Shown here piece after piece: positions 14,074 through 30,091 of a stretch of 64,000 nucleotides of DNA. Location: NCBI RefSeq assembly GCF_000022145.1, contig NC_011891.1, positions 2,864,001-2,928,000 on the forward strand. The letters are read 5' to 3'. How positions within the stretch are numbered: the first letter of the stretch is position 1; each line of letters starts with the position of its first letter. A program made the position numbers and the translations under genes. Origin of the DNA: Anaeromyxobacter dehalogenans 2CP-1. Its GTDB lineage: Bacteria; Myxococcota; Myxococcia; Myxococcales; Anaeromyxobacteraceae. The notes under the pieces are model-generated. The model made no database searches and was not told the origin of the DNA. It worked only from the letters and a program-made list of their open reading frames with translations.

Positions 14074-14136
14074 CGACATCCGACCACGTTTTCGGGTAGT
14101 ACGCGGGCCTACATCGGTCCCAAGACATGCGGAACC

Positions 14137-14161
14137 CCGCGAAACGGGCGGCCGTTCGCGG
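14137..14161 (+). terminator. GC-rich hairpin after fliA (possible terminator)
   Basis: Arms CCGCGAA and TTCGCGG with an inner CGG/CCG pair, one bulged A and a GCGG loop, 64 bases after the fliA stop. There is no T-run, so it is either a Rho-assisted end or only an mRNA 3' structure. Confidence 0.45.
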
Positions 14162-14289
14162 AAAGCTTTACCGGCTCCGGGCCCGGTGCTGTCGTCTGGG
14201 CGATCGCGCCGCCGTTCCGGGATGTCCCCGCAGGCGAGGATGCGCGGTCGAGGCGAGCGCCGGATGCGCCGCCAGGAGCACGCTGAGCC

Positions 14290-15060
14290 ATGCCGTCGTA
14301 CGACGACCCAGACGAACGATGCGCCCGTCCCACGGGGCGGGCGACCTTCCGTTTCACCTCCCTCGAGCCCGACGACCCCGATCTCGCCCAGGAGCTGCGG
14401 GGCTGGATCCTGACCGCCCAGGCCTTCCTGGCCCGCGGGGTCACCCCGCCGACGCGGGCCCGCCTGGAGGACTCGCTGCGCATCGTCGGCGAGCTCTCCC
14501 GCGTGCTGGCCGGCGAGGAGGAGGGCGAGGGCGTCACCGAGCAGCGCACCGTCCACGCCGCCGTCCACCGCGGCCGCATCCAGGCCGTCACGTCGCTGTT
14601 CGTGTGCCCCGGGGCCGCGTTCGTGGAGCTGCTCGCCACCGCCCCTTGGAACCTGCTCGGCCCGGCCGACCCGCCCGATGCGCGCACCGTGCGCGGCGCG
14701 GGCAGCGCGCTGGTCGAGCGGGCGGTGACGCTGTCACGCGGCGCCGGCGCCGGCGGGCGGGTCACGCTGCAGGCCGAGAACCCGCGCGCCTTCGCCGTGT
14801 ACCAGAAGCTCGGCTTCGAGCGCATGCGCCCGTCCGACGCGCCGCTCGCGCTGGTGCCCCGCGGCAAGGACGGGTTCTCGAAGTCCGTGGTGCGGCTGGC
14901 CCGTGGCGCCGCCGGGCCGGAGGAGGCGCGCGCGCCCTGGATGCTGCTCGACCCGGGCCGCGCGGCCGTGCGCGCCCGCGGGGCCGCGCCGCGCGCGCTG
15001 CTGTCGCACCTGCCGATCGCCGCCTCGGCGCGCCCGCCCGCGCTCAGGCGCGCCGGTTGA
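14290..15060 (+). CDS. GNAT-family N-acetyltransferase
   Basis: 256 residues. The GNAT core shows the acetyl-CoA loop RTVRGAGSALVERAV and, further on, ENPRAFAVYQKLGFERM. The first 90 residues and last 50 are not recognisable. The substrate is unknown. It sits alone between the fliA operon and fliJ, converging on fliJ with 17 bases of overlap at their 3' ends. Modification of a flagellar protein is possible from location but nothing in the protein proves it. The ATG at 14290 lacks a well-spaced ribosome site. Confidence 0.7.
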   Translation: MPSYDDPDERCARPTGRATFRFTSLEPDDPDLAQELRGWILTAQAFLARGVTPPTRARLEDSLRIVGELSRVLAGEEEGEGVTEQRTVHAAVHRGRIQAVTSLFVCPGAAFVELLATAPWNLLGPADPPDARTVRGAGSALVERAVTLSRGAGAGGRVTLQAENPRAFAVYQKLGFERMRPSDAPLALVPRGKDGFSKSVVRLARGAAGPEEARAPWMLLDPGRAAVRARGAAPRALLSHLPIAASARPPALRRAG

Positions 15061-15460
15061 ACGCGAGCGTCGCGAGCTCGTCCAGCGCGCGACGCTCCTT
15101 CCGCTCCTGCTCCGCCCGCTGCTCCTCGAGCTTCCGCTCGCGGGCGCGGCGGGCGGCCTCCGCCTCGTTCCGCGCGCTCGCCAGCCCGGCCTGGGCGACG
15201 CGCTCGCGGCGGAGCGCCTGCGCCACCTCGGCCTCCGCCGCCTCCACCGAGCGCAGCGCCCGCGCGTGCGCGATCTCCTCCACCGCCCACAGCCCGGCCG
15301 CCCCCGCCCCGCGCCCGTCGATCCGGGCGCCCGCGCGCGTCGCCTCCAGCCGCTCCGCCGCGCGCGCCACGCCTCCGCGGGCCCGCGCCAGGTCCTCCTG
15401 CGCGCGCGCCTCGGAGCGCTCGCGCACCTTCACCAGCCGATCCAGCCGCGTCCGCGCCAC
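15044..15460 (-). CDS. fliJ: FliJ-like flagellar export chaperone
   Basis: 138 residues forming one long charged coiled coil. The N-terminus RLDRLVKVRERSEARAQEDLARA matches FliJ, whose usual length is about 145. FliJ links the export ATPase FliI to FlhA. Here it is separated from fliI, alone on the minus strand and facing away from flgF, which is unusual. Its end overlaps the GNAT gene. Sequence identity in such coiled coils is low, so the call leans on length, pattern and position. Confidence 0.65.
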   Translation of the reverse strand: MARTRLDRLVKVRERSEARAQEDLARARGGVARAAERLEATRAGARIDGRGAGAAGLWAVEEIAHARALRSVEAAEAEVAQALRRERVAQAGLASARNEAEAARRARERKLEEQRAEQERKERRALDELATLAFNRRA

Positions 15461-15492
15461 GCCGCCCCTCCTCGCCCCCGCTCGCCCCGCCC

Positions 15493-15508
15493 TGCACGCC
15501 GCGGGCCT
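15493..15508 (-). promoter_or_regulatory. Weak sigma-54-like site upstream of fliJ
   Basis: On the minus strand AGGCCCG-CGGC-GTGCA keeps the GG-N10-GC core, but the -12 TT is replaced by GT and the -24 flank is poor. It would start transcription near 15482, about 22 bases before the fliJ ATG. Confidence 0.3.
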
Positions 15509-15541
15509 TGCCGGCCGCGCCGGTCCCCTGGCGCGCCCGGC

Positions 15542-15557
15542 TGGCGCGCCCCTTGCG
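15542..15557 (+). promoter_or_regulatory. Sigma-54 promoter of the flgF operon
   Basis: TGGCGCG-CCCC-TTGCG matches the sigma-54 consensus with exact spacing. Transcription should start near 15569, leaving about 14 bases including GGGAGA before the ATG at 15583. This is almost the same arrangement as the fliL promoter. Confidence 0.72.
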
Positions 15558-15582
15558 AAGGTGCCGGGCGGGAGACGCGGAC

Positions 15583-16290
15583 ATGGCGGACGGCATCTAC
15601 GTGAGCATGTGCGGCGCGGTGGCCCGGGCGGAGCAGCTCGACGCCGTGGCCGACAACCTCGCCAACGCGCAGACGCCCGGGTTCAAGGCGGCGCGCCCGG
15701 CGTTCGAGAGCTTCCTCGCGCCCGGAGCGGCGCAGGACAAGCGCTACGCGGCGGCGGTCGCCACCGGGATCGACCTGCGCCCCGGCCCGACCCAGCGGAC
15801 CGGCAACGCGCTCGACGTGGTCCCGGAGGCCGGGATGTTCCTGACGGTGCGCACCGCCGGCGGCGGCACCGCCTACACGCGCGACGGCCGGCTGACGCTC
15901 GACCCGGATCGGCGTCTCGTCTCTGACGGCCGGCCGCTGCTCTCGCCCCGCGGCGAGCCGATCGTCCTCCCGCCCGACCTCGAGGCGCGGGTGGACGCGG
16001 CCGGGCGCGTGTGGGCCGGTGACGTGGAGGTCGCGGCGCTGGGCCTGGCCCGGCTCGACGGCCCGGTGGACCGCGTCGGCCCGTCGCTCCTCGCGCCGGG
16101 CGCCGGCGGACGGGCGCTGCCGGCGGAGGGCGCGGTGCGCAGCGGCGAGCTCGAGCTCGGCAACGCCGGCGCCCTCGAGGCGTCGATCCAGCTCGTCTCC
16201 GCCCAGCGCGCCTACGAGGCCTCGCTCCAGGCCATCCAGACGTACCGGCAGCTCGACCAGCGCGCCGTCGAGGTGGCGCGCGTGAAGTGA
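15583..16290 (+). CDS. flgF: Flagellar proximal rod protein FlgF
   Basis: 235 residues of the FlgF/FlgG rod family. The N-terminal signature is VAARAEQLDAVADNLANAQTPGFKA-like (actual text starts VSMCGAVARAEQLD), and the C-terminal signature is ASIQLVSAQRAYEASLQAIQT. It is slightly shorter than usual FlgF. It builds the proximal rod and precedes flgG as normal. The ATG at 15583 has GGGAGA upstream and follows a sigma-54 site. FlgF rather than another rod protein is judged from order and the MADGIYV start. Confidence 0.88.
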   Translation: MADGIYVSMCGAVARAEQLDAVADNLANAQTPGFKAARPAFESFLAPGAAQDKRYAAAVATGIDLRPGPTQRTGNALDVVPEAGMFLTVRTAGGGTAYTRDGRLTLDPDRRLVSDGRPLLSPRGEPIVLPPDLEARVDAAGRVWAGDVEVAALGLARLDGPVDRVGPSLLAPGAGGRALPAEGAVRSGELELGNAGALEASIQLVSAQRAYEASLQAIQTYRQLDQRAVEVARVK

Positions 16291-16301
16291 AAGGGATCCC
16301 C

Positions 16302-17087
16302 GTGCTCCGCTCGCTCTACACCGCCGCCACCGGAATGGAAGCCCAGCAGCTCCGGATGGACGTCATCGCCAACAACCTCGCCAACACCGGCACCACCGGG
16401 TTCAAGCGCCAGCGGGCCGAGTTCGAGGACCTGCTCTCCGAGACGATCCACGGCGCCGAGGCGCCCGACCCGCGGGGCGGCACCGCGCCGGCGGCGCTGC
16501 AGGTCGGGCTGGGCGTGCGCACCGGCTCGACGGTCCGCAACTTCGGCCAGGGCGAGCTGCTCACCACCGGCAACGCGCTCGACCTCGCCATCGAGGGCGA
16601 CGGCTTCTTCCGCGTGCAGCGCCCGGACGGCTCGCTCGCGTACACGCGCGCCGGCAACTTCCGGGTGGACGCGGCCGGCCGGCTGGTCACCGCCCGCGGC
16701 GAGGTGGTGGACCCGGAGATCACCTTCCCGCCCGAGACCACCCGCGTGACGGTGGACGCCGACGGCACGGTGCGCGCGCAGGTCGCGGGGCGCGAGGCGC
16801 CGCAGGAGCTGGGCCGGCTCGAGCTCTGCACGTTCCCGAACCCGGGCGGCCTGGAGGCGGCGGGCGGGAACCTGCTCCTGCAGACGGCCGCGAGCGGCGA
16901 GGCGGTGGACGCCCGCCCCGGCGAGCAGGGCGCGGGCACGCTCGCGCAGGGCTTCCTCGAGGGCGCCAACGTGAAGGCCGTCGAGGAGATGATCGACATG
17001 ATCGCCACCCAGCGCGCCTACGAGCTCAACTCGCGCGTGGTCCAGACCGCGGACCAGATGCTGCAGCGCCTCACCTCGCTGCGCTGA
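16302..17087 (+). CDS. flgG: Flagellar distal rod protein FlgG
   Basis: 261 residues, the usual FlgG length. The start LRSLYTAATGMEAQQLRMDVIANNLANTGTTGFKRQRAEFEDLL is diagnostic, as is the end NVKAVEEMIDMIATQRAYELNSRVVQTADQMLQ. I chose the GTG at 16302 because the protein then begins like known FlgG and AAGGGA lies 6 bases upstream. A GTG at 16287 overlapping the flgF stop would add five residues. FlgG forms the distal rod. Confidence 0.96.
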   Translation: MLRSLYTAATGMEAQQLRMDVIANNLANTGTTGFKRQRAEFEDLLSETIHGAEAPDPRGGTAPAALQVGLGVRTGSTVRNFGQGELLTTGNALDLAIEGDGFFRVQRPDGSLAYTRAGNFRVDAAGRLVTARGEVVDPEITFPPETTRVTVDADGTVRAQVAGREAPQELGRLELCTFPNPGGLEAAGGNLLLQTAASGEAVDARPGEQGAGTLAQGFLEGANVKAVEEMIDMIATQRAYELNSRVVQTADQMLQRLTSLR

Positions 17088-17094
17088 GCCCCGC

Positions 17095-17727
17095 ATGCCC
17101 GCCGCCCTCCACCTCGCCGCCGCGCTGCTCGCCGCCTCCGGCGGTCCGCCCGCGGCCGCCTCCGCCGAGGCGGCCGTGGCCGCGGCGCTCGCGCCCGACG
17201 GCGCGCGCGCGCGCGTCGAGGCGCTCCGCGGCGGCGCCTCCGGCTGCGCGCCCGCCGCCTTCCGGGCGCTGCGGCCGGTGCTGGCCTCGGGGGAGACCCC
17301 GCTGCAGGTGGACGGCCGCGACGGCGCCGGGCGGCCGTGCCGGTCCTTCGCCTGGGCCGCGGTGCGGGTCACCGGCCCGGCCCTGCGGACCACGCGCGCC
17401 GTCGCGGGCGGCGAGCCGCTCGCCGGCGCGGTCGAGCCGGCCGAGGCGGAGCGCCTGCCGGGGCGCTCCCCGCTCGCCGGGCTTCCGTCCGGCGCGCGCG
17501 CCGCGCGCGCCCTCGCGTCCGGCACGCTGCTCGCCGGGGCCGACGTCCGCGCGGGCCCCGCGCCCGGGGCGCCGGTGCAGGTGGTGGTTCGCGCGGCCGG
17601 CCTGGAGATCACCCGCGAGGCCCGCGCCGTTCCCTGCGTGCGCGGCCGCGCCTGCGCGCTCCTCCCCGGCGGCCGCCGCGTGGAGGGCCGGCTGCAGGAC
17701 GGCCGGATCCTGGTGGAGGTCCCGTGA
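17095..17727 (+). CDS. flgA: Flagellar P-ring assembly chaperone FlgA
   Basis: 210 residues with an Ala-rich signal peptide. The C-terminal SAF/ChapFlgA domain includes LASGTLLAGADVRAGPAPGAPVQVVVRAAGLEITREARAV and ends VEGRLQDGRILVEVP. FlgA is the periplasmic chaperone for P-ring assembly from FlgI, encoded two genes later. The N-terminal half is divergent. The ATG is 7 bases after flgG. Confidence 0.9.
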   Translation: MPAALHLAAALLAASGGPPAAASAEAAVAAALAPDGARARVEALRGGASGCAPAAFRALRPVLASGETPLQVDGRDGAGRPCRSFAWAAVRVTGPALRTTRAVAGGEPLAGAVEPAEAERLPGRSPLAGLPSGARAARALASGTLLAGADVRAGPAPGAPVQVVVRAAGLEITREARAVPCVRGRACALLPGGRRVEGRLQDGRILVEVP

Positions 17728-18413
17728 ACCCGCTCACCCGCGTCGCCCTCGCCGTGGCGGCCTTCGCCGCGCTGGTCCTCGCGCTCTCCGCCTGCGGGCC
17801 GGCCCACGTGGCCGGCCACGTCCCGAAGCGCCGCGACTACGCCGTGCCGGACGCCGCCGGGCAGGAGGCGCAGGTCGCATCCGCCGGCTCCACCTGGCGC
17901 GAGGGGCGCGCCGCGTCCATGCTCTACACCGACGCCCGCGCGCTCCGCGAGAACGACCTGGTGGTCGTGCGCATCGAGGAGATCGCGGACGCGAAGCGCT
18001 CCGCCGACACCGACCTCACCCGGCGCAGCGAGCTGAACGCGTCCATCGAGGCGTTCCTCACCTCGCTCGACACGCCCTACGCGCTGAAGGGCGGCGCGAC
18101 CACCGGGTTCAAGGGCCTCGGCTCCACCGCGCGCACGGAGCGGCTCACCGCCACGGTGCCGGCGGTCGTCCGCAAGGTGCTGCCCAACGGCAACCTGTTC
18201 ATCGAGGGGCACCGGGTGGTGCTGGTGAACGCGGAGGAGCAGCACTTCTACATCTCCGGCGTGGTCCGGCCGATCGACATCGACCAGGAGAACGGCGTGA
18301 AGTCCTCCATGGTCGCCGACGCCGAGATCGAGTTCACCGGCCGCGGCGTGCTCTCCGACAACCAGCGCCAGGGCTGGCTCTCCCGCCTCCTCGGCTGGTT
18401 CTGGCCGTTCTGA
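17724..18413 (+). CDS. flgH: Flagellar L-ring lipoprotein FlgH
   Basis: 229 residues. A signal sequence ends in the lipobox LSAC (Cys about residue 24), so the protein is lipidated. The mature part contains SMLYTDARALRENDLVVVRIEE and LPNGNLFIEGHRVVLVNAEEQHFYISGVVRP, both standard FlgH. It forms the outer-membrane L-ring, confirming a Gram-negative envelope. The GTG at 17724 overlaps the flgA stop. Confidence 0.96.
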   Translation: MNPLTRVALAVAAFAALVLALSACGPAHVAGHVPKRRDYAVPDAAGQEAQVASAGSTWREGRAASMLYTDARALRENDLVVVRIEEIADAKRSADTDLTRRSELNASIEAFLTSLDTPYALKGGATTGFKGLGSTARTERLTATVPAVVRKVLPNGNLFIEGHRVVLVNAEEQHFYISGVVRPIDIDQENGVKSSMVADAEIEFTGRGVLSDNQRQGWLSRLLGWFWPF

Positions 18414-18422
18414 GCCCCCGCC

Positions 18423-19541
18423 ATGCCCGCACGACCGATCCCCGTCCCCGCCTTCGCCCTCGCCCTCGCCCTCGCGGCCGCGCTCGCGGTGCCCGCCCCC
18501 GCCGCCGCCGCGCGGGTGAAGGAGCTCGCCGACGTGGTCGGGGTCCGCGAGAACGCGCTCTACGGCTACGGCCTGGTGGTGGGCCTGGCCGGCACCGGCG
18601 ACTCGGAGCGGGTGCTGTTCACGCAGCAGTCGGTGGCGGGCATGCTCGGGCGCCTCGGCATCCGCATCGACCCGAAGGACGTCCGCGCGCGCAACGTGGC
18701 CGCGGTGATGGTCACCGCGCGGCTGCCCCCGTTCGCGCGCCCCGGGACCCGCATCGACGTGGCGGTCGCCTCCATGGGGAACGCGCGCTCGCTCGCGGGC
18801 GGGCTGCTGCTCGTGACGCCGCTCGCCGGCGGCGACGGGAAGGTCTACGCGGTCGGCCAGGGCCCGGTGCAGGTGGCCGGGTACGACGCGGGCGCCGGCG
18901 GCGCCGAGCTGCGCAAGAACACGCCGACGTCCGGCCGGGTGGCGGGCGGCGCCGCGGTGGAGCGCGCGGTGGACTTCGCGCTGGGCCAGGCGCCGCTCGT
19001 GCTCGCGCTGCGCCGGCCCGATCTCACCACCGCGAGCCGGCTCGCCGCCGCGGTGAACGCGAAGCTCGGCGCGGGCACCGCGCGCGCCGTCGACCCCGCC
19101 GCGGTGGAGCTCTCGCCCCCGCCGGCGCGCAAGGACGACGTGGTGGGGTTCCTCGCCGAGATCGAGCTGCTGGAGGTCGAGGCCGATCAGCGCGCCCGGG
19201 TGGTCGTGTCGGAGCGCACCGGGACGGTGGTGGCCGGGGAAGGGGTGCGCCTGCGCCCGGTGGCGGTGGCGCACGGCGGCCTCCAGGTGCGCGTGCAGCG
19301 CGATCCGGCGGTGTCGCAGCCGGCGCCGTTCGGCGCCGGGCGCACCGTGGAGGCGACCCGCGACCGCGCCGCCGCCACGGAGGCCGGGGGCGGCGTGGTG
19401 GCCCTGCCCGCCACCGCCTCGGTGCAGGATCTCGCCCGCGCGCTCGACCTGCTCGGCGCGAGCCCCCGCGACCTCGTGGCCGTGCTGGAGGCGATCCGCG
19501 CCGCGGGCGCGCTCGACGCCGAGCTCGAGGTGCTCGAGTGA
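18423..19541 (+). CDS. flgI: Flagellar P-ring protein FlgI
   Basis: 372 residues, normal for FlgI. A cleavable signal peptide (Ala/Leu/Val-rich, ending near residue 30) is followed by VKELADVVGVRENALYGYGLVVGLAGTGD. The end is ASVQDLARALDLLGASPRDLVAVLEAIRAAGALDAELEVL. FlgI forms the periplasmic P-ring around the rod. It is 9 bases after flgH and overlaps flgJ by 4 bases. Confidence 0.97.
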   Translation: MPARPIPVPAFALALALAAALAVPAPAAAARVKELADVVGVRENALYGYGLVVGLAGTGDSERVLFTQQSVAGMLGRLGIRIDPKDVRARNVAAVMVTARLPPFARPGTRIDVAVASMGNARSLAGGLLLVTPLAGGDGKVYAVGQGPVQVAGYDAGAGGAELRKNTPTSGRVAGGAAVERAVDFALGQAPLVLALRRPDLTTASRLAAAVNAKLGAGTARAVDPAAVELSPPPARKDDVVGFLAEIELLEVEADQRARVVVSERTGTVVAGEGVRLRPVAVAHGGLQVRVQRDPAVSQPAPFGAGRTVEATRDRAAATEAGGGVVALPATASVQDLARALDLLGASPRDLVAVLEAIRAAGALDAELEVLE

Positions 19542-20254
19542 TCGCGCCCGCCGCCGCGCCCGCCGCGGATCCGCGGCTGCGGGAGGCCGCGCAGGCGCTC
19601 GAGGCCATGCTGCTCCGCGAGATCGTGAAGACGAGCGGCGCGTTCCGCGGCGGCGAGGGCGCCGGCGCCGGGGTCCGCGCCGACCTGTTCGCCGACGCGC
19701 TCTCCGACGCGGTGGCGCGCTCGGGCGGCATCGGGCTCGCCGGCGAGATCACCCGATCGCTCGGAGGCGCCGGAGATCCCGCGCCGGCCCCGCCGGCCGG
19801 CCCGTCCCTGCCGCGGGGCGTCGCGCCCGGCGCGCTCGCGGCGCCGCTGCTGGGCCGGCTCACCAGCGCGTTCGGCCCGCGCGCCGATCCGCTCACCGGC
19901 GCCGCCACCCGCCACGACGGCGTGGACGTCGCCGCGCCGGAGGGCACGCCGGTGCGCGCCCCCGCGGCCGGGGTGGTCGTCCGCGCCGGACCGCGCGGCG
20001 GCTACGGCAACGCGGTGGAGGTGGACCACGGCGGCGGCCTGCTGACGCTGTACGGGCACGCCGCCGAGGTGCGCGTCCGCCCGGGCCAGGTGGTGGCCGC
20101 GGGGGACGAGCTGGCGCTGGTGGGGAGCACCGGCCGCTCCACCGGGCCGCACCTCCACTTCGAGGTCCGGATGAGGGGCCGGGCGATCGATCCGGCGCGA
20201 GCCCTCAAGATCTACGCACAGCGTGCCGATGAGCGCGGCAGGAGCGGACCGTGA
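19538..20254 (+). CDS. flgJ: FlgJ rod-binding domain fused to an M23/LytM peptidase
   Basis: 238 residues in two parts. Residues about 1-75 form the FlgJ N-terminal rod-assembly domain (AAQALEAMLLREIVKTSGAF and VARSGGIGLAGEITR). After a Pro/Ala linker, residues about 105-225 form an M23 metallopeptidase with HxxxD (RHDGVDVAAPEGTPV) and HxH (GPHLHFEVR). Enterobacterial FlgJ instead carries a glucosaminidase. The M23 part probably cuts peptidoglycan cross-links so the rod can pass. There is no obvious signal peptide; FlgJ is normally exported by the flagellar system. GTG start overlaps flgI. Confidence 0.9.
   Translation: MIAPAAAPAADPRLREAAQALEAMLLREIVKTSGAFRGGEGAGAGVRADLFADALSDAVARSGGIGLAGEITRSLGGAGDPAPAPPAGPSLPRGVAPGALAAPLLGRLTSAFGPRADPLTGAATRHDGVDVAAPEGTPVRAPAAGVVVRAGPRGGYGNAVEVDHGGGLLTLYGHAAEVRVRPGQVVAAGDELALVGSTGRSTGPHLHFEVRMRGRAIDPARALKIYAQRADERGRSGP
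20204..20232 (+). promoter_or_regulatory. Candidate sigma-28 promoter for flgM
   Basis: CTCAAG (20204-20209), 15 bases, then GCCGATGA (20225-20232), against the consensus TAAA-N15-GCCGATAA. It lies inside the 3' end of flgJ, 35 bases before the flgM ATG. The same CTYAWS-N15-GCCGA layout precedes both flagellin genes. Confidence 0.6.
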
Positions 20255-20267
20255 GCAGGAGGTCTCC

Positions 20268-20570
20268 ATGAAGATCAACGATGCCGCAGAGATCCGTCGC
20301 GTCCAGGCGGGACGTACCGCGGGGTCGCCGCGCACCCGGGAGGCGGGTGCGCCGGCTGCCGACCGGGTCTCGACCGAGTCGCTGGCGCGGCTCGAGGCCG
20401 CCGCCGCCACCGCCCGGACCGGGGCGGCGCAGGACCGCGCCGTGCGGCTCGAGGCCATCGAGGCGGCGGTGAAGCAGGGCACCTTCCGGCCGGATCCGCA
20501 GCGCATCGCGCAGCGGATCCTCGAGGACGCCGAGCTGACCGCGCAGCTGCGCGCGATGCTCGAGCGGTGA
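20268..20570 (+). CDS. flgM: Anti-sigma-28 factor FlgM
   Basis: 100 residues, mostly polar and probably unfolded at its N-terminus. The C-terminal sigma-binding region reads RLEAIEAAVKQGTFRPDPQRIAQRILED, close to the FlgM consensus (I..I..G.Y..D...IA..I). FlgM holds FliA until export through the completed hook. The ATG at 20268 has AGGAGG eight bases upstream. It has its own sigma-28-type promoter within flgJ, giving feedback. Confidence 0.93.
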   Translation: MKINDAAEIRRVQAGRTAGSPRTREAGAPAADRVSTESLARLEAAAATARTGAAQDRAVRLEAIEAAVKQGTFRPDPQRIAQRILEDAELTAQLRAMLER

Positions 20571-20578
20571 GGCCGCCG

Positions 20579-21019
20579 ATGGAGGACGTCCTCGCCGCCG
20601 CCGCCGCGCTGCGCGACGCGCTCCGCGCCGAGTCGGCCCGCGCCGGCGCGGTGCCCGAGGCGCTGCGCGCGCTCGACGCAGCCCGCATCTTCGAGGGCGC
20701 GAGCGCGCGCGCGGGCTTCAACGCGCAGGTGGCGGCCCTGCAGGAGCGGCTCGCCGCAGCGCTGGCCCGCGCCGCCCCCGGCGGCCAGGCGACCCTGCCC
20801 CGGCTGCGGGCGCGGGCGCCCGGCGCGGCGGACGCGCTCGGGGTGCTGCTCGCCGACGTCCGCGCGCTCGCCGCCCGGATCGCGGAGCGGGACCGGATCA
20901 ACCTCGCGCTGGCGGCCGGGGCGCGCGCCTGCGTCGAGGGCTACCTCGCCGCGCTCAGCCCCCGCCCCGCCGCCTACGACCGGCGCGGCGCGCCCGCGGC
21001 CGCCGCCCGCCGCGCCTGA
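20579..21019 (+). CDS. flgN: Flagellar export chaperone FlgN
   Basis: 146 residues, mainly alpha-helical and Ala/Arg/Leu-rich. The pattern LRDALRAESARAGAVPEALRALDAARIFE, with helical repeats and a C-terminal DRINLALAAGARACVEGYLAAL, fits FlgN, the chaperone of FlgK and FlgL, encoded directly after it. I chose the ATG at 20579 (GAGG six bases upstream); a GTG at 20567 overlapping flgM is also possible. Sequence similarity in this family is weak, so position carries much of the call. Confidence 0.8.
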   Translation: MEDVLAAAAALRDALRAESARAGAVPEALRALDAARIFEGASARAGFNAQVAALQERLAAALARAAPGGQATLPRLRARAPGAADALGVLLADVRALAARIAERDRINLALAAGARACVEGYLAALSPRPAAYDRRGAPAAAARRA

Positions 21020-21030
21020 GGAGCGTTTCC

Positions 21031-22440
21031 GTGGCCGACCTGCTGAGCATCCTCTCCTCCAGCGCCGCCAGCCTCGCGGCGCAGCGCGCCGCCGCCGCGA
21101 CCGCGTCGCACAACCTGCAGAACGCGAACACCCCCGGCTACGCGCGCCAGCGCGCGGTGCTCGCCACCACCCTCCCCGCCCAGCAGGCCGGCGGGGCCTG
21201 GATCGGCCGCGGCGCCACGCTGGCGCAGGTGACGCAGGCGCGCGACCGGTTCCTGGAGGCACAGCTCCCCGCGGCGCAGGGCCGGGCTGCCCGCTCCGCC
21301 GCGGCGTCCTCGCTGCTCGGGGCGGTCCAGGTGCTGGACCCGGAGGCGGAGGGCGGGCCCGGCGAGGCGCTCGGCGGCCTCTACGCCTCGCTCACCGAGC
21401 TGTCGCAGGCGCCCTCGGATCCCGGCCTCCGCCAGGCGGCGGTCGCGGCCGCCCGCACGCTCGCGCTCTCGCTGAACCGCGCGCGCCAGGGGCTGGAGGA
21501 CGCGCGCGCCGGCGCCGACGCGCGCATCGCCGCCGGCCTGTCGGACGCGAACGCCCTCGCCGCCGAGGTGGCCGCGCTGAACCGCGACATCCGGGCGGCG
21601 CGCGCCGTCGGCGCCGGCGAGCCGAACGACCTGCTCGACGCCCGCCAGCGCTCCGTGGACCGCCTCGCCGAGCTCACCGGCGCGACGCCGGCCGCGACGA
21701 GCGAGGGCGACGTCTCGCTGCTCCTGCCCGGCGGCTCCGCGCTGGTCGCCGGCCTGAGCGCTTCCACGCTGCTCCCGCAGCCCGGCCCGGACGGCCACCT
21801 CTCGGTGCAGCTCGCCACCGGCGGCGTCTGCGCGGACGTCGCGCCCGGGGGCGAGCTGGGCGGGCTCGTCGACGCGTCGTCCGGCCCTTTGAAGGACGCG
21901 ATCACCGCGCTCGACCAGCTCGCCTGGGCGGTCGGCAACCAGCTCAACTCCGTGCACCGCGCCGGCTGGGGGCTCGACGGCGGCACCGGGCGGGACCTGC
22001 TCGACGTGGGCGCCACCGCCGCCGGCGCGGCCCGGCGCATCGCGGTGTCCGCCGCGGTGGCCGCCGATCCCTCGCGCCTCGCCACCGCCAGCGCCGCCGG
22101 TCAGCCCGGCGACGCCGGCAACGTCCTCGCGCTGCTCGCCACCTCGACCACGCGGATCGCGACCGGCCAGGGCTCCGACCTGCTGGCCGGCCTGGACGCC
22201 ACCGGGGCGCTCTCGCGGATCACCGGCACGTTCGGCGCCGCCGCGCGCGGGCTGGCCGCGTCCGCCGCCCAGGACGCGGGGCTCGCCGGCCACCTCGCCA
22301 CGATGCGCGAGTCGGCCAGCGGCGTCTCGGTGGACGAGGAGCTGCTGGAGATGGAGAAGGCGCAGCGCGCCTACGACGCCATCTCGAAGGTGATCCAGGC
22401 CTCCTCCGAGATGTTCGACACCCTGCTGAAGCTGGAGTAG
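21031..22440 (+). CDS. flgK: Flagellar hook-associated protein 1, FlgK
   Basis: 469 residues. N-terminal signature SAASLAAQRAAAATASHNLQNANTPGYARQ; C-terminal signature VSVDEELLEMEKAQRAYDAISKVIQASSEMFDTLLKL. These D0/D1 helices are diagnostic of FlgK, which joins hook and filament. A GTG start has GAGGAG seven bases upstream. Length is a little below enterobacterial FlgK, so the central domains are reduced. FlgL follows after 3 bases. Confidence 0.95.
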   Translation: MADLLSILSSSAASLAAQRAAAATASHNLQNANTPGYARQRAVLATTLPAQQAGGAWIGRGATLAQVTQARDRFLEAQLPAAQGRAARSAAASSLLGAVQVLDPEAEGGPGEALGGLYASLTELSQAPSDPGLRQAAVAAARTLALSLNRARQGLEDARAGADARIAAGLSDANALAAEVAALNRDIRAARAVGAGEPNDLLDARQRSVDRLAELTGATPAATSEGDVSLLLPGGSALVAGLSASTLLPQPGPDGHLSVQLATGGVCADVAPGGELGGLVDASSGPLKDAITALDQLAWAVGNQLNSVHRAGWGLDGGTGRDLLDVGATAAGAARRIAVSAAVAADPSRLATASAAGQPGDAGNVLALLATSTTRIATGQGSDLLAGLDATGALSRITGTFGAAARGLAASAAQDAGLAGHLATMRESASGVSVDEELLEMEKAQRAYDAISKVIQASSEMFDTLLKLE

Positions 22441-22443
22441 CCA

Positions 22444-23328
22444 ATGCGCGTCACCGACCGGATGACCTTCGACCGCGCCGCCCTCGAGGGCGGCCAGGCC
22501 CGCGCGCGGCTCGACCGCGCCGTGGCGCAGGCCGCGAGCGGCGTGCGCGTGGTCCACCCCGGCGACGACCCCGGGGCCGCCGCGCGCATCGCGGCCGAGC
22601 GGGTGAAGGTGCAGCGCATGGACGCGATCGCCACGGCCACGGCGCGCGCCTCGGACGAGCTCGCCGCGGTGGACGCGGCGCTCGGCGAGGTGGCGAACGG
22701 CCTCGCGCGCGCGCAGGAGCTCGCGACGATGTTCGCGAGCGCCCCCTACGACGCGGCGCAGCGGGCGGCGGGCGCGCGGGAGGTGCGCGGGATCTTGGCC
22801 TCGGCGGTGGCCAGCCTCGGCGTGAAGGTGGGCAACCGCTACCTGCTGGGCGGGTTCCGGGATGGCGCGCCCCCGTTCGACGCGGGCGGCGCGTACCAGG
22901 GGGACGGGGGGGTGCGCGAGGTGGAGATCGCCCCGGGCGTGCGGCAGCCGGCCGGCGTCCGCGCCGACGTGGCCATCGCCGGGGCGGGCGGCGGGGTCGA
23001 CGTGCTCGCCACGCTCGGCGCGCTGGCCGCGGCGCTCGAGGCGAACGACCCGGAGGCCGTCCGCGCCACCCTCTCGCCGCTCGCGCGCGGCACCGATCAG
23101 CTCGCCTCCGGCCGCGGCGCGGCCGGCGCGGCCATGGCCACCCTCGACGCCGCGACGCGCGCCGGCGAGGCCGCCCGCGACGCCGCGCGGATCGCGATCG
23201 GGAAGCTGGCCGACGCCGACCCCATCGCCGCCGCGAGCGAGCTGGCCCTGGCGCAGCGCGCGCTGGACGCGGCGCTCACCGCCACCGCGAAGGGGTTCCA
23301 GCTCACCCTGCTCGACCGGCTGCGGTGA
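22444..23328 (+). CDS. flgL: Flagellar hook-associated protein 3, FlgL
   Basis: 294 residues of the flagellin superfamily. The N-terminus RVTDRMTFDRAALEGGQARARLDRAVAQAASGVRVVHPGDDPGAAA matches FlgL, with the conserved G..V..P.DDP. The middle has VGNRYLLGGFRDGAPPFD. FlgL forms the second junction layer between hook and filament. It ends the operon that starts at flgF or, from its internal promoter, flgM. Confidence 0.94.
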   Translation: MRVTDRMTFDRAALEGGQARARLDRAVAQAASGVRVVHPGDDPGAAARIAAERVKVQRMDAIATATARASDELAAVDAALGEVANGLARAQELATMFASAPYDAAQRAAGAREVRGILASAVASLGVKVGNRYLLGGFRDGAPPFDAGGAYQGDGGVREVEIAPGVRQPAGVRADVAIAGAGGGVDVLATLGALAAALEANDPEAVRATLSPLARGTDQLASGRGAAGAAMATLDAATRAGEAARDAARIAIGKLADADPIAAASELALAQRALDAALTATAKGFQLTLLDRLR

Positions 23329-24327: not shown

Positions 24328-25683
24328 ATGGACGCATCGTTCCGCGCGGGCGGTCTCGCCTCGGGGATGGACACCAACGCAATCGTCGAAAAGCTCGTCG
24401 AGCTGGAGTCGCGGCCGCTCGGCCTCCTCCGGCAGCGGCAGGCCGCGTTCCGCACGCAGATCTCCGCGCTGGGCGACGTCATCTCCGGGCTGTCCACCCT
24501 CTCCGCCGCCGCCGCCGACCTGGGCGCTCACGGCGTCCTCTCCACCCAGGCGCGCTCCAGCCCGAAGTCCTTCTCGGCCGCCCCGGGGACGGACGCGGTC
24601 GCCGGCAGCTACCGGGTGGCGGTGAAGGCGCTGGCGCGCCCGGCCAAGTGGCGCTCGGACGCGTTCGCCGACGGCGTCGGCGTGGCCGGCGGGACGCTCC
24701 GCCTGACCGTCCAGGGCACGGCCTTCCCCCCCATCGCCGTCGCGGACGGCACCAGCCTCGCCGACGTGGCCTACGCCATCCGTCAGAGCGGGGCGCCGGT
24801 GTCCGCGGTGGTGCTCGACGACGGCACGTCGTCCTGGCTCTCCGTGACCGCCCGCGACACCGGCCACCCGCCGGGCGGCGCGCCCGCGGACGCGCTGTCC
24901 ATCGCCTTCACCCCGGACGCCGGCGCCACCGGCCAGGCGCCGGGCCTCGCGGAGATCGAGGCCGCGCGCAACGCGCAGGTGGAGGTCGACGGCCTGACGT
25001 TCACCCGGACGGGCAACGTGATCGCCGACGCGCTGCCGGGGGTGACGCTCACGCTCACGAGCGAGGGCGGCCCGGCGGAGGACCTGGTGCTCGGGACCGA
25101 TCCGGACGGCACCCAGGCGCGGCTGCAGAAGCTGGTGGACGCCTACAACGGCGTGATGCGGCTCGTGCAGCGCCACCTCGCGGTCGCGAAGGACGCCGAC
25201 CGCGCCACCACCCTGGCCGGCGACTCCACCCTGCGCTCGCTGCAGGCCCGGCTCCAGCGCGTGCTGGTGACCGAGGTGCCCGGGCTCGCGACCGTGCGCA
25301 CGCTCGCGGACCTGGGCGTCAAGACCGCCCGCGACGGCAGCCTCTCCATCGACGCGACCACGCTCGCCTCGGCGATCTCGCGCGATCCCGCCGCCGTGAA
25401 CGCGCTGTTCTCGAACTCGGGGACGGGCCTGGCCGCGGTCGTGAAGTCGCTCGTGACCGACCACACCCGCGCCGGCGGCGGCACGCTGGTGCTCCGGCAG
25501 GAGGGGCTGGGCCGCACGGTGAAGGACCTCGACGGCCAGGCCGCCGCGCTGCAGCTCCGCATCGACGCCTTCCAGCAGAACCTGATCCGCCAGTTCACCG
25601 CGATGGAGAACACCGTCAGCGGGCTCAAGTCGATCGGGAGCTTCCTCGCCGGCCAGACCACGCAGCAGCAGAAGGGGAGCTGA
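24328..25683 (+). CDS. fliD: Flagellar filament cap protein FliD
   Basis: 451 residues. The N-terminus FRAGGLASGMDTNAIVEKLVELESRPL is the FliD signature (GLxSGxD, LxxLExxPL). The C-terminal domain ends RIDAFQQNLIRQFTAMENTVSGLKSIGSFLAGQ, also standard. FliD caps the filament and folds flagellin at the tip. GGAGG lies five bases before the ATG. FliS-like and FliT-like genes follow directly. Length is within the normal FliD range. Confidence 0.95.
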   Translation: MDASFRAGGLASGMDTNAIVEKLVELESRPLGLLRQRQAAFRTQISALGDVISGLSTLSAAAADLGAHGVLSTQARSSPKSFSAAPGTDAVAGSYRVAVKALARPAKWRSDAFADGVGVAGGTLRLTVQGTAFPPIAVADGTSLADVAYAIRQSGAPVSAVVLDDGTSSWLSVTARDTGHPPGGAPADALSIAFTPDAGATGQAPGLAEIEAARNAQVEVDGLTFTRTGNVIADALPGVTLTLTSEGGPAEDLVLGTDPDGTQARLQKLVDAYNGVMRLVQRHLAVAKDADRATTLAGDSTLRSLQARLQRVLVTEVPGLATVRTLADLGVKTARDGSLSIDATTLASAISRDPAAVNALFSNSGTGLAAVVKSLVTDHTRAGGGTLVLRQEGLGRTVKDLDGQAAALQLRIDAFQQNLIRQFTAMENTVSGLKSIGSFLAGQTTQQQKGS

Positions 25684-26422: not shown

Positions 26423-27262
26423 ATGTCCCTGTCCATCCGCACCAACATCGCCTCGCTGAACGCGCAGCGGAACCTGTCCACCACGCAGACCGCGCTCGAG
26501 TCCTCCATGTCGCGCCTGTCCTCCGGCTACCGCATCACCCGGGCCGGCGACGACGCCGCGGGGCTCGCCATCAGCACCAAGCTCGAGGCGCAGATCCGCA
26601 GCTACAACCAGGCGGCGCGCAACGCCAACGACGGCCTCTCGGTGATCCAGACCACCGAGGCGGCGCTGAACGAGACCTCCAACGTGCTGAGCCGGCTCCG
26701 CGAGCTGGCCATGCAGGCCGCCTCCGACGGCATCGGCGACACCGAGCGCGGCTACGTGCAGGCCGAGGCCGACCAGCTCCGCGCCGAGATCGACCGGATC
26801 GCGGCGGTCACGAAGTACGACGGGACGCCGCTGCTGGACGGCACCGGGACCGCGCTCGGGTTCCAGGTGGGCGTGGAGAGCGACGCGTCCGGCGACGACC
26901 GCATCGGCTTCTCCACCCTGGACGCGACCGCCAGCGCGCTCGGGCTGGACGCCTCCACGCTCGACTTCACCACCGCCACCGGGGCGCGCGACGCGCTCTC
27001 CACCCTCGACGCCGCCATGGAGACCATCTCCCGCAGCCGCGCCGACCTGGGCGCCGTGGGCAACCGCTTCCAGAGCACCATCGCGAACATCCAGTCGTTC
27101 GCCGAGGCGCTGTCCGCCGCGAACAGCCGCATCCGCGACGCCGACGTGGCCGAGGAGACCTCGCGGCTCGCGCGCGCGAACATCCTGCAGCAGGCCGGCG
27201 TGGCGGTGCTCGCCCAGGCGAACCAGACGCCGCAGCTCGCGCTCAAGCTGCTGGGCGGGTAG
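26423..27262 (+). CDS. fliC: Flagellin (copy 2)
   Basis: 279 residues, almost collinear with copy 1. Differences are mainly conservative and concentrate in the central region (for example TKYDGTPLLDGTGTAL against TKYNGTALLSGTSTSL). The same D0/D1 signatures are present and D2/D3 are absent. It has its own sigma-28-like promoter and GGAGA before the ATG. Two similar flagellins may form a mixed or segmented filament, or be used under different conditions; the sequence does not decide this. Confidence 0.97.
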   Translation: MSLSIRTNIASLNAQRNLSTTQTALESSMSRLSSGYRITRAGDDAAGLAISTKLEAQIRSYNQAARNANDGLSVIQTTEAALNETSNVLSRLRELAMQAASDGIGDTERGYVQAEADQLRAEIDRIAAVTKYDGTPLLDGTGTALGFQVGVESDASGDDRIGFSTLDATASALGLDASTLDFTTATGARDALSTLDAAMETISRSRADLGAVGNRFQSTIANIQSFAEALSAANSRIRDADVAEETSRLARANILQQAGVAVLAQANQTPQLALKLLGG

Positions 27263-27281: not shown

Positions 27282-27298
27282 CCCGGGATGATCCCGGG
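27282..27298 (+). terminator. Small hairpin after flagellin 2
   Basis: Arms CCCGGGA and TCCCGGG around a TGA loop, 20 bases after the flagellin stop. Short, with no T-run, so termination is uncertain. Confidence 0.35.
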
Positions 27299-27351
27299 CC
27301 ACGAGCCCCGCGCCGCCTCCCCACCCTCCCTCCCGATCCCGAGGTACGCCC

Positions 27352-27735
27352 GTGAACCCAGCCGCCCGCCGCTACGCCCAGGCCGAGCGCCAGACCGCCT
27401 CCCCCGAGCGCCTCATGGTGCTCCTGTTCCAGGCGGCGCTGCGAAACGTCCGCGCCGGCGCCGAGGCGCTCGAGCGCGGCACCGCCGCCGAGGCGGCGCG
27501 CCCCCTCACCCTCGCGTCGGACATCGTGGTGGAGCTGCACGCCACCCTGGACCGTCCGCGCGCGCCGGAGCTCTGCGACCAGCTCGCGGCGATCTACCGC
27601 TTCGTGTGCGATCGGCTCGGGGCCGCCGCGCTGGCCCGCGACGCGCGCGCGGCGCGCGAGGCGGAGCGGGCCCTCGCCCCCATCGCCGAGGCGTTCGAGG
27701 CCGCCGCCGCGCGGCTCGCGGCCGGCGGGCGCTGA
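27352..27735 (+). CDS. fliS: Flagellin chaperone FliS
   Basis: 127 residues, typical FliS length. The N-terminus RRYAQAERQTASPERLMVLLFQAALRNVRAGAEALE matches FliS (Y....v.ta.P..Ll.lLyd.al). FliS binds the disordered C-terminus of flagellin in the cytosol. A GTG start has GAGG seven bases upstream. It lies after flagellin 2 and meets the minus-strand glycosyltransferase end to end (stops at 27735 and 27736). It keeps the canonical N-terminus that the FliS-like gene at 25686 lacks. Confidence 0.88.
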   Translation: MNPAARRYAQAERQTASPERLMVLLFQAALRNVRAGAEALERGTAAEAARPLTLASDIVVELHATLDRPRAPELCDQLAAIYRFVCDRLGAAALARDARAAREAERALAPIAEAFEAAAARLAAGGR

Positions 27736-29070
27736 TCAGCCCGCGGCCGCCGCCCGCGCGCGCGCCAGGAACAGCCGCGCGTCCTCGAGCGCGCCGAGCG
27801 CGTGCGCGGCCCGGGCCGCGGCGGCCCAGGCGCGCGGTGGGCCGCCCGCGGCCAGCACCGGCTCGAGCGCGGCGAGCGCCTCCCCGGCCCGGCCCAGCGC
27901 CACCAGCGCCTCGGCCTCCCCGGCCGCCGCCTCGATCCCCTCGGCCGGCGCGAGCGCGTCCGCCGGATGCGCCGGGGTGCGCGCCGCGCGGTACGCCGCG
28001 CGCGCCGCCTCCGCCCGGCCGGCCCGCAGCTCGACCGCGCCGAGGCGCGCCAGCGCCCGCGCCCGCCGCGCGTAGATCACCTGGTCGAACACCCCGCCCT
28101 CCAGCAGCGCGAGCGCGCGGCGCAGCTCGGCAGCGGCCCGCGCCAGCCGCTCCTCGCGCCCGGGCGCGCCCGGGGCGCCGGCGGAGATCTCCAGGGCGCA
28201 GGCCCGGAAGAACGGCAGGTCCGGGTTCGCGCCGCCGGCGGCCTCCGCCCGGTCGACCGCCTCGAGGGCGACCGCGGCGTCGCCGCGGCGGACCGCGAGC
28301 GCCGCCCGGACCACCGCGAGGCGCCGGATCGAGCGGTGGCGGGGCTGGCGGTCCAGCGCGGCCCAGGCACGCTCCGCGATCTCCCCGGCCTCCTCGGCCT
28401 CCCCGAGCGCGAGCAGCTCCGCCGCGAGGTAGCCGAGCGCGATGACGCTGTCGGGCTCGTCCTCGGCGCGCCGGCGCAGCAGCGCCAGGTTGCGCGCGCG
28501 CTTGCCCCGCCCGTCCCAGATCTCCTTCGAGTAGCCGAGGTGCACGAGGTCCACCTCCAGCGCGGCGATGCGCCCGCCCCGCGCCGCGGCCCACTCCAGC
28601 ACGCTCTCGTGGATCCGCCCGGTCCAGCGCAGCCCGGGCGCGCGCCGCACCACCCGCGGCAGCAGGGCCGGCGGCCCGGCGCGCCGCACGCCGGAGAGGA
28701 CCTCGCCCGCCGGCGCGTCGGGCGCGTCCGCGTTGTGACACCGGACCAGGCCCACGTCGAACGTGGCGCGCCGCAGCGCGCGCCGCAGGGCCACCCCCGC
28801 GCCCGGCGCGAGCCGCTCGTCCGCGTCGAGCGGGAGGATCCAGTCGCCGGTGGCGTGCGCCGCGGCGAGGTTTCGCGGCGCCGCGAAGTCGTCGTCCCAC
28901 GGGCGCTCCAGCACCCTGGCGCCGGCCGCGCGCGCCAGCTCGCGGGTCCGGTCGGTGGAGCCGGTGTCGACCAGCACGATCTCGTCGACGACCCCCCGGA
29001 CCGACTCCAGGCACCCGGGGAGCATCCGCTCCTCGTCCTTCGCGATGAGGCAGAGCGACACATGGGCCAT
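27736..29070 (-). CDS. Family 2 glycosyltransferase with C-terminal TPR-like region
   Basis: 444 residues. The N-terminal GT-A domain has VSLCLIAKDEERMLPGCLESV, EIVLVDTGSTDRTRELA and the nucleotide-sugar motif ILPLDADERL. The acceptor-side segment has GRIHESVLEW. From about residue 230 the protein is Ala/Leu-rich helical repeats resembling TPRs. Such GT2-TPR proteins occur near flagellin genes and can glycosylate proteins. It faces the fliS gene and may decorate flagellin; the sugar and target are not shown. GAGGG abuts the ATG, an odd spacing. Confidence 0.85.
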   Translation of the reverse strand: MAHVSLCLIAKDEERMLPGCLESVRGVVDEIVLVDTGSTDRTRELARAAGARVLERPWDDDFAAPRNLAAAHATGDWILPLDADERLAPGAGVALRRALRRATFDVGLVRCHNADAPDAPAGEVLSGVRRAGPPALLPRVVRRAPGLRWTGRIHESVLEWAAARGGRIAALEVDLVHLGYSKEIWDGRGKRARNLALLRRRAEDEPDSVIALGYLAAELLALGEAEEAGEIAERAWAALDRQPRHRSIRRLAVVRAALAVRRGDAAVALEAVDRAEAAGGANPDLPFFRACALEISAGAPGAPGREERLARAAAELRRALALLEGGVFDQVIYARRARALARLGAVELRAGRAEAARAAYRAARTPAHPADALAPAEGIEAAAGEAEALVALGRAGEALAALEPVLAAGGPPRAWAAAARAAHALGALEDARLFLARARAAAAG

Positions 29071-29082
29071 CCCTCGCAGCAG

Positions 29083-29098
29083 AGCAAGGGCGGTGCCG
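29083..29098 (-). promoter_or_regulatory. Sigma-54-like site just upstream of the glycosyltransferase
   Basis: On the minus strand CGGCACC-GCCC-TTGCT keeps the GG-N10-GC spacing and a perfect -12 TTGCT. Predicted transcription starts about two bases before the ATG at 29070, so the mRNA would be almost leaderless. That closeness makes the site less certain. Confidence 0.4.
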
Positions 29099-29137
29099 CC
29101 GCCGCCGCGCCCGTCGCGGCGCGGGGTTGCGCCCGCG

Positions 29138-29914
29138 TCACGCCGCTGGCGCGCCCGGCGCGTCGGCGCGCTGACACGGACCGCCCGCACCGAGCAGCGC
29201 CGCGGCCAGCTCGCCGAACCGGCGCAGGTCCACCGGCTTGGCCAGCACCACGGCGTGCGCGTCCTCGGCGTCGCTGGTGCCGCCGGCGGCGAGCAGGATC
29301 ACCGGCAGCCGCGCGCAGCCGGGATGCCCGCGGAGCGCCGCGAGCAGCGGCGCCGCGGCGGCCCCGACGGCGTCGCAGTCCAGCACCGCCAGGCCGTGGG
29401 GCGTGGCCGCGAGCGCCCGGAGCAGGGCCGCGGGATCGGGCAGCGCCGCCACCTCGACGGCGCGCCCGCCGGCCCGGCCCAGCGCCTCGAGCGCCGCGGC
29501 CAGCCCGGCGCGGAGCAGCGGATCCGGGGCGAACAGGGCGGCGGTGAGCGGCCCCGCTGCGCGAGCGTCCCCGGGCGCCGGCGGCTCGGGGGCCGCGCCC
29601 GCCGTCCGCCGCTGGAACAGCAGGTCGAGCTGGACGCGATCGCGGTGCGAGGCCGGCCGGAGCTCCACCGCCGCGATCGCGCCGCTCGCGAGCGGCGTGG
29701 CCCAGCGCACCTCGCCGGCGAGGTGCAGCTCGACGCGCTCCTGCGCGAGCACGAGCCGGACGCGCAGCCAGTCTCCCGGGGTGACCGGCGCGCGGGTCCG
29801 GACCAGCAGGCCGTGCTCGAGCTGCGGGACCGCGTCGCGACGCGCCGCGGTGGCGGAGCCGTACGCGAGCCCGATCTCCTCGCCCTCCATCCCTTCGGCG
29901 CTGCGGTCGCGCAT
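29138..29914 (-). CDS. PilZ-like domain joined to a degenerate receiver-like domain
   Basis: 258 residues. The first 100 resemble the myxococcal type of PilZ domain (GLLVRTRAPVTPGDWLRVRLVL, then LAGEVRWATP), which often lacks the RxxxR c-di-GMP motif; I see no clean copy here. Residues about 130-250 resemble a receiver (LTAALFAPDPLLRAGL, LAVLDCDAVG, VVLAKPVDL), but the usual acidic pair is reduced. The ATG at 29914 has a G-rich ribosome site; a GTG at 29956 is possible. It lies beside the glycosyltransferase and flagellar genes, so motility control is plausible. Confidence 0.6.
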   Translation of the reverse strand: MRDRSAEGMEGEEIGLAYGSATAARRDAVPQLEHGLLVRTRAPVTPGDWLRVRLVLAQERVELHLAGEVRWATPLASGAIAAVELRPASHRDRVQLDLLFQRRTAGAAPEPPAPGDARAAGPLTAALFAPDPLLRAGLAAALEALGRAGGRAVEVAALPDPAALLRALAATPHGLAVLDCDAVGAAAAPLLAALRGHPGCARLPVILLAAGGTSDAEDAHAVVLAKPVDLRRFGELAAALLGAGGPCQRADAPGAPAA

Positions 29915-30091
29915 CCGCCCCCCGCCCGATGCCGGGCCAGGATTCCCTACCGCCACGCGGACGGAGCGTCAGTCCCGTGACCGTGGGTGTAAGCGGCGGG
30001 CGCATTCACCGACCGTCCGCGCCCGAGCCAGGGCGGCCGGCGACCCTCCCCCGCCGGGGCCGGGGTCTCGCGCGCCGGCGGAATCCCCGGA

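Follow-up and report, generated by a model that had tools for sequence, protein, structure and literature searches.

The flagellar protein FlgJ is known as the rod cap; enteric bacteria have a wall-cutting activity located on FlgJ itself (PMC4183434, PMC7277832). Single-domain FlgJ proteins are bound by a separate, Sec-exported lytic transglycosylase, as described for SltF and BB0259 (PMC7277832, PMC8517470). Later papers that cite Nambu 2006 state that FlgJ of Deltaproteobacteria has a single domain or else corresponds to two separate proteins. The genome paper of Anaeromyxobacter dehalogenans 2CP-C reports a flagellar cluster that lacks flgJ, flgA and flgN, among others, while swimming is reported for Anaeromyxobacter strain K (PMC2330069). 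The stretch of DNA analyzed here, 64,000 nucleotides of A. dehalogenans 2CP-1 (in the following: the window), contains a FlgJ as well as candidates for FlgA and FlgN, all three of which are absent according to that paper, and it therewith points to the flgJ that was reported missing in the first Anaeromyxobacter genome paper (PMC2330069).

The gene is a single open frame without internal stop, and the stop of flgI and the start of flgJ-M23 share the four bases GTGA (19538-19541). The genes around it are arranged in the order flgF-G-A-H-I-J-M-N-K-L (Table 1). The order flgI-flgJ-flgM-flgN is kept in relatives, in which flgJ-M23 is conserved between the same flagellar genes. The linkage to flgI and to the rod/hook operon that is typical for FlgJ is therefore given by the GTGA overlap, the downstream flgM and the order kept in relatives. 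The flgM gene starts with an ATG behind an AGGAGG-like site, and its longer frame begins at 20223. That the frame 19538-20254 is the flgJ of this genome, which consists of a single contig of 5,029,329 bases, is part of the explanation that we regard as probable as a whole. Three long frames on the forward strand within or beside the flagellar cluster, 14127-15926, 27288-28445 and 28763-29980, have no Pfam match. They could be chance frames of a high-GC sequence or unrecognized flagellar proteins such as FliK.

Table 1. Features of the flagellar run in the window, listed by position.
Feature	Position	Strand	Evidence and remarks
flgF	15508-16290		
flgG	16287-17087		
flgA candidate	17095-17727	+	TIGR03170 E 0.0011, below its cut-off
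flgH	stop at 18413		
flgI, P-ring protein	18423-19541	+	PF02119 E 5.5e-127; directly upstream of flgJ-M23, GTGA overlap
flgJ-M23 fusion gene	19538-20254	+	238 aa, GTG start, stop included; single open frame; orthologs at equivalent operon position in relatives
FlgJ rod-binding (rod cap) domain	19565-19771	+	residues ~10-78; three predicted helices; 68-domain profile, NCBIfam FlgJ, AlphaFold2
Proline/alanine-rich linker	19772-19849	+	residues ~79-104; pLDDT ~50; in most pairs drifts faster than both domains
M23 (LytM-type) zinc peptidase domain	19850-20206	+	residues ~105-223; PF01551; Foldseek matches NMB0315, StM23, ShyA, Pgp3
HxxxD zinc motif, H126 and D130 (HDGVD)	19913-19927	+	sequence; invariant in 29 fusions
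Second active-site histidine H174 (YGH)	20057-20059	+	sequence; invariant in 29 fusions
HxH motif, H205 and H207 (HLH)	20150-20158	+	sequence; invariant in 29 fusions
flgM, anti-sigma-28 factor	20268-20570	+	PF04316 E 3.1e-6, TIGR03824 E 2.7e-9; directly downstream of flgJ-M23
flgN candidate	20567-21019	+	PF05130 E 8e-5, below its cut-off
flgK	21031-22440		
flgL	22444-23328		
fliD	24328-25683		
fliC	26423-27262		

The N-terminus matches the Pfam rod-binding family PF10135 with an E-value of 0.016 and 16.2 bits, below the cut-off of 25.1 bits, and a search with this family alone misses the domain in this genome. The NCBIfam FlgJ model PRK12790 matches with an E-value of 1.3e-4. Since the scores of the curated models are weak, a custom profile was built. 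For this purpose, FlgJ N-domains were collected from 80 named loci, in which they are encoded by the gene that follows flgI, and 68 of them remained after removal of recognized Myxococcota and M23-fused sequences. This profile, whose 68 domains were gathered using a first profile that contained myxobacterial sequences and may include Myxococcota among a few unclassified "Deltaproteobacteria" records, detects the fusion frame with an E-value of 4.6e-10 as its sole find in the window, the next frame having an E-value of 1.4. Moreover, the fusion frame reaches 37.6 bits compared to 9.0 bits for the best of 2000 shuffles. A rod-binding N-domain is thus recognized by the 68-domain profile, clear of the shuffles, although it scores under the Pfam cut-off. 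Searches of the PDB with this domain, by sequence and by fold, gave no convincing relative and are uninformative, because no solved rod-binding domain turned up. No hydrophobic leader of the Sec type is present within the first 60 residues, where the best 15-residue mean hydropathy is 0.8. Therefore, the protein is presumably exported via the flagellar type III channel, with which the absent leader is consistent, though it is not proof.

The C-terminal part matches PF01551 over residues 125-219 with an E-value of 4.6e-36 and 123 bits. An earlier note, made from the DNA letters, had described a rod-binding domain and an M23 domain in one 238-residue frame, and both halves are borne out by the family and profile matches. 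The intact HxxxD and HxH zinc motifs that it had read are likewise in place, together with the second active-site histidine that is expected of an M23 peptidase, and all five residues are unchanged across 29 diverse FlgJ-M23 fusions with 28-91% identity to the window protein. The active-site loss of degenerate LytM factors of the EnvC/NlpD type is not seen. According to sequence and Foldseek searches, the nearest solved structures are NMB0315 and its gonococcal homolog, StM23, ShyA and Pgp3, the top ones having 34-44% identity over the domain, and the AlphaFold2 model has a pLDDT above 90 over nearly the full length of the domain. The M23 domain is therefore predicted to cut peptide cross-links of the cell wall. 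The contrast to the GH73-type FlgJ drawn by the earlier note also held, since the C-terminus is M23 and a search for GH73 (PF01832) across the genome gave no match. A plasmid search returned only matches to the M23 domain, covering about half of the query.

Both domains are, judging from dN/dS, under purifying selection within the genus, with the linker drifting: the values are 0.09-0.16 for the N-domain, 0.12-0.39 for M23 and 0.3 to 1.3 for the linker. At family distance the N-domain has a dN/dS of 0.5-0.75, which is a rough estimate there. The FlgJ orthologs of the two nearest genomes of the same genus are 89-91% identical to that of the window. Furthermore, the fusion goes along with the flagellum. 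Among 41 genomes, comprising the window's own and 40 relatives, flgI is present in 11, and ten of these contain FlgJ-M23, the eleventh having a single-domain FlgJ, whereas FlgJ-M23 was found in none of the 30 genomes without flgI.

It is probable that FlgJ-M23 is a rod cap which is exported via the rod channel and opens the wall by cutting peptide cross-links. The N-terminal three-helix domain would cap the growing rod, and the flexible linker would hold the catalytically intact zinc peptidase out in front of the rod, where it meets the peptidoglycan. The M23 domain would then hydrolyze peptide cross-links and thereby open a local gap for the rod. Its activity would most likely be that of a D,D-endopeptidase, as in ShyA or MepM. 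The peptidase would be tethered to the rod, because FlgJ is the rod cap according to the literature. We infer the export route, the rod-cap function, the bond specificity and the necessity from what is known of the families. This model is supported by the two-domain architecture, the operon, the co-occurrence with flgI, the invariant active site, the selection on both domains and the interchange of M23 with SLT, GH73 or no enzyme in homologs. The main cautions are single-domain relatives and a Desulfovibrio homolog with a dead active site. The genome also has, at other places, six further matches to M23 and six to SLT, which could act as well and count against the model. In its favor, neither an SLT gene nor a second M23 gene was found in the 64-kb window.

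The M23 domain could be active while the wall is opened by a hydrolase of general function, for example an SLT; the FlgJ-borne peptidase would then only trim the gap, make it wider or assist in seating the P-ring. Close relatives get by with a single-domain FlgJ, several SLT and M23 genes lie outside the window in this genome, and for other species with single-domain FlgJ it is documented that a separate SLT cuts the glycan (PMC8517470, PMC7277832). However, none of the other SLT or M23 genes of the genome was seen within the flagellar cluster, the nearest SLT lies about 8 kb past the end of the window beyond non-flagellar genes, and the active site of FlgJ-M23 is strictly conserved in the 29 fusions, which makes this division of labor unlikely. 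It is more improbable still that the domain has no catalytic activity of its own and, in the manner of the LytM factors EnvC and NlpD, recruits or activates a different wall hydrolase. Degenerate M23 domains do work in this way (PMC9662197), and the Desulfovibrio homolog is degenerate, but the zinc and catalytic residues are all present here and in every other complete fusion examined, unlike in EnvC-type domains. An ordinary M23 enzyme that lies in a flagellar operon by chance, with an N-terminal part that is not FlgJ, would fit the PF10135 score below the cut-off and the missing family call for the genome. We disfavor this reading as very improbable, since the independent profile with its shuffle control, the fixed position after flgI and the lack of a secretion leader all speak against it, and two more distant fusions (L114 and L189) have both domains well above the Pfam cut-offs.

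The fusion is not confined to this genome, as the earlier note could be taken to suggest, but recurs in Myxococcota, Desulfobacterota and Nitrospirae. Among the flagellated Myxococcota sampled FlgJ-M23 is the usual form, and most complete Myxococcota FlgJ frames that were recovered carry M23, in the window's own family, in other families of the same order and in eight further families. Since the sequences are best-scoring matches and not a random draw, no frequencies are given. The survey of C-termini in this phylum that the earlier note had proposed thus found the M23 fusion to be common; it is not fixed, as single-domain FlgJ proteins occur in one family and in some loci from metagenome-assembled genomes (MAGs). 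Three loci, which belong to the window's order or are near to it, have a single-domain FlgJ, in which the fused enzyme is lost or absent. In one of them, no M23, SLT or GH73 match was found in 19 kb around flgI-flgJ. One Myxococcota genome encodes both a GH73-type and an M23-type FlgJ. Because of the single-domain proteins in close relatives and this GH73-type protein, the M23 domain cannot be assumed to be indispensable; it is replaceable on FlgJ, and a fused enzyme is not universally needed. A FlgJ-like frame of a further Myxococcota genome (L050:1234-2631) has a weak C39-peptidase-like tail (PF13529 E 5.6e-4, below the cut-off).

Outside Myxococcota, FlgJ-M23 is present in Desulfovibrionales, in other Desulfobacterota and in one Nitrospirae genome. 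In 11 of the Desulfovibrionales loci examined, linkers of about 120-350 residues lead to an intact M23 domain, and one locus has an M23 domain without the active-site residues. The latter, in Desulfovibrio sp. OttesenSCG-928-A18 (L106:2525-4057), lacks both HxxxD and HxH and is a natural catalytically dead version. Seven other Desulfovibrionales loci encode FlgJ tails of 280-400 residues that are rich in Ala, Gln and Pro and have no Pfam domain. Compact fusions are L114 and L189, which came from the same phylum search as the Desulfovibrionales, and one Nitrospirae locus. Most FlgJ proteins of the named set have a single domain, and elsewhere the C-terminal slot of FlgJ holds GH73, as in Nitrosospira and Rhizobacter, SLT or no enzyme. 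Four loci, from Desulfurella, Ignavibacterium and a Bacteroidetes MAG, combine FlgJ with an SLT lytic transglycosylase domain.

In a tree of M23 domains with 119 columns, FlgJ-M23 of the window's order forms one clade (100/99) and that of Desulfovibrionales another (100/95), while the remaining FlgJ-M23 domains scatter into several groups, the alignment being short. Of the groups in this tree, only these two clades are firm. A single origin is not rejected by the AU test, neither for all FlgJ-M23 domains (p 0.30) nor for those of Myxococcota (p 0.40). As FlgJ-M23 is found repeatedly, in both myxobacteria and sulfate reducers, it appears that one rod cap has been equipped with different wall cutters in bacteria.

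The FlgJ-M23 architecture is probably contained in protein databases through automatic listing. A search of the open-access literature for a published FlgJ-M23 fusion found none, which is not proof that none exists, and a 2022 review of M23 enzymes contains no occurrence of "flagell". In FlgJ-M23, a cap and an enzyme family that are both known come together in a recurrent pairing for which no description was found in that literature. The fusion conflicts with the generalization, as given in the papers mentioned above, of a single-domain FlgJ plus a separate hydrolase in Deltaproteobacteria. More tentatively, and with somewhat less than even confidence, the rod might cross the wall by peptide cutting alone in Myxococcota and parts of Desulfobacterota, using a cap-borne endopeptidase exported through the channel of the rod and without glycan cleavage, and the wall-opening chemistry might be modular, with M23, SLT or GH73 on the same cap depending on the lineage. 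With FlgJ-M23 it can be tested cleanly if peptide cutting alone is enough for a flagellar rod to pass through peptidoglycan. Since nature provides a set of FlgJ proteins with intact M23, dead M23, SLT, GH73 or no enzyme, domain swaps are possible.

Among the closest described systems is the dual-domain FlgJ of beta- and gammaproteobacteria, the Salmonella type with a GH73 glucosaminidase. Both this protein and FlgJ-M23 have the rod-binding domain at the N-terminus and a peptidoglycan hydrolase at the C-terminus of one polypeptide, and in three GH73-type loci the gene also directly follows flgI. However, the enzyme is here an M23 zinc peptidase and thus a predicted peptide cutter. The same rod-binding domain is found in the single-domain FlgJ proteins whose lytic transglycosylase is encoded separately, as SltF in Rhodobacter sphaeroides and BB0259 in Borrelia; there, too, the opening of the wall is assigned to a dedicated hydrolase, which FlgJ localizes (PMC7277832, PMC8517470). 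In contrast to these, the hydrolase of FlgJ-M23 is a covalent part of FlgJ, is a peptidase and has no visible Sec leader. The FlgJ-SLT fusions share the cap, the fused hydrolase and the position after flgI, but carry a lytic transglycosylase domain instead of a peptidase. The M23 D,D-endopeptidases ShyA, MepM and NMB0315 as well as Pgp3 share the catalytic fold and motifs and have other N-terminal regions, whereas the same fold is joined here to a FlgJ domain and encoded in a flagellar operon.
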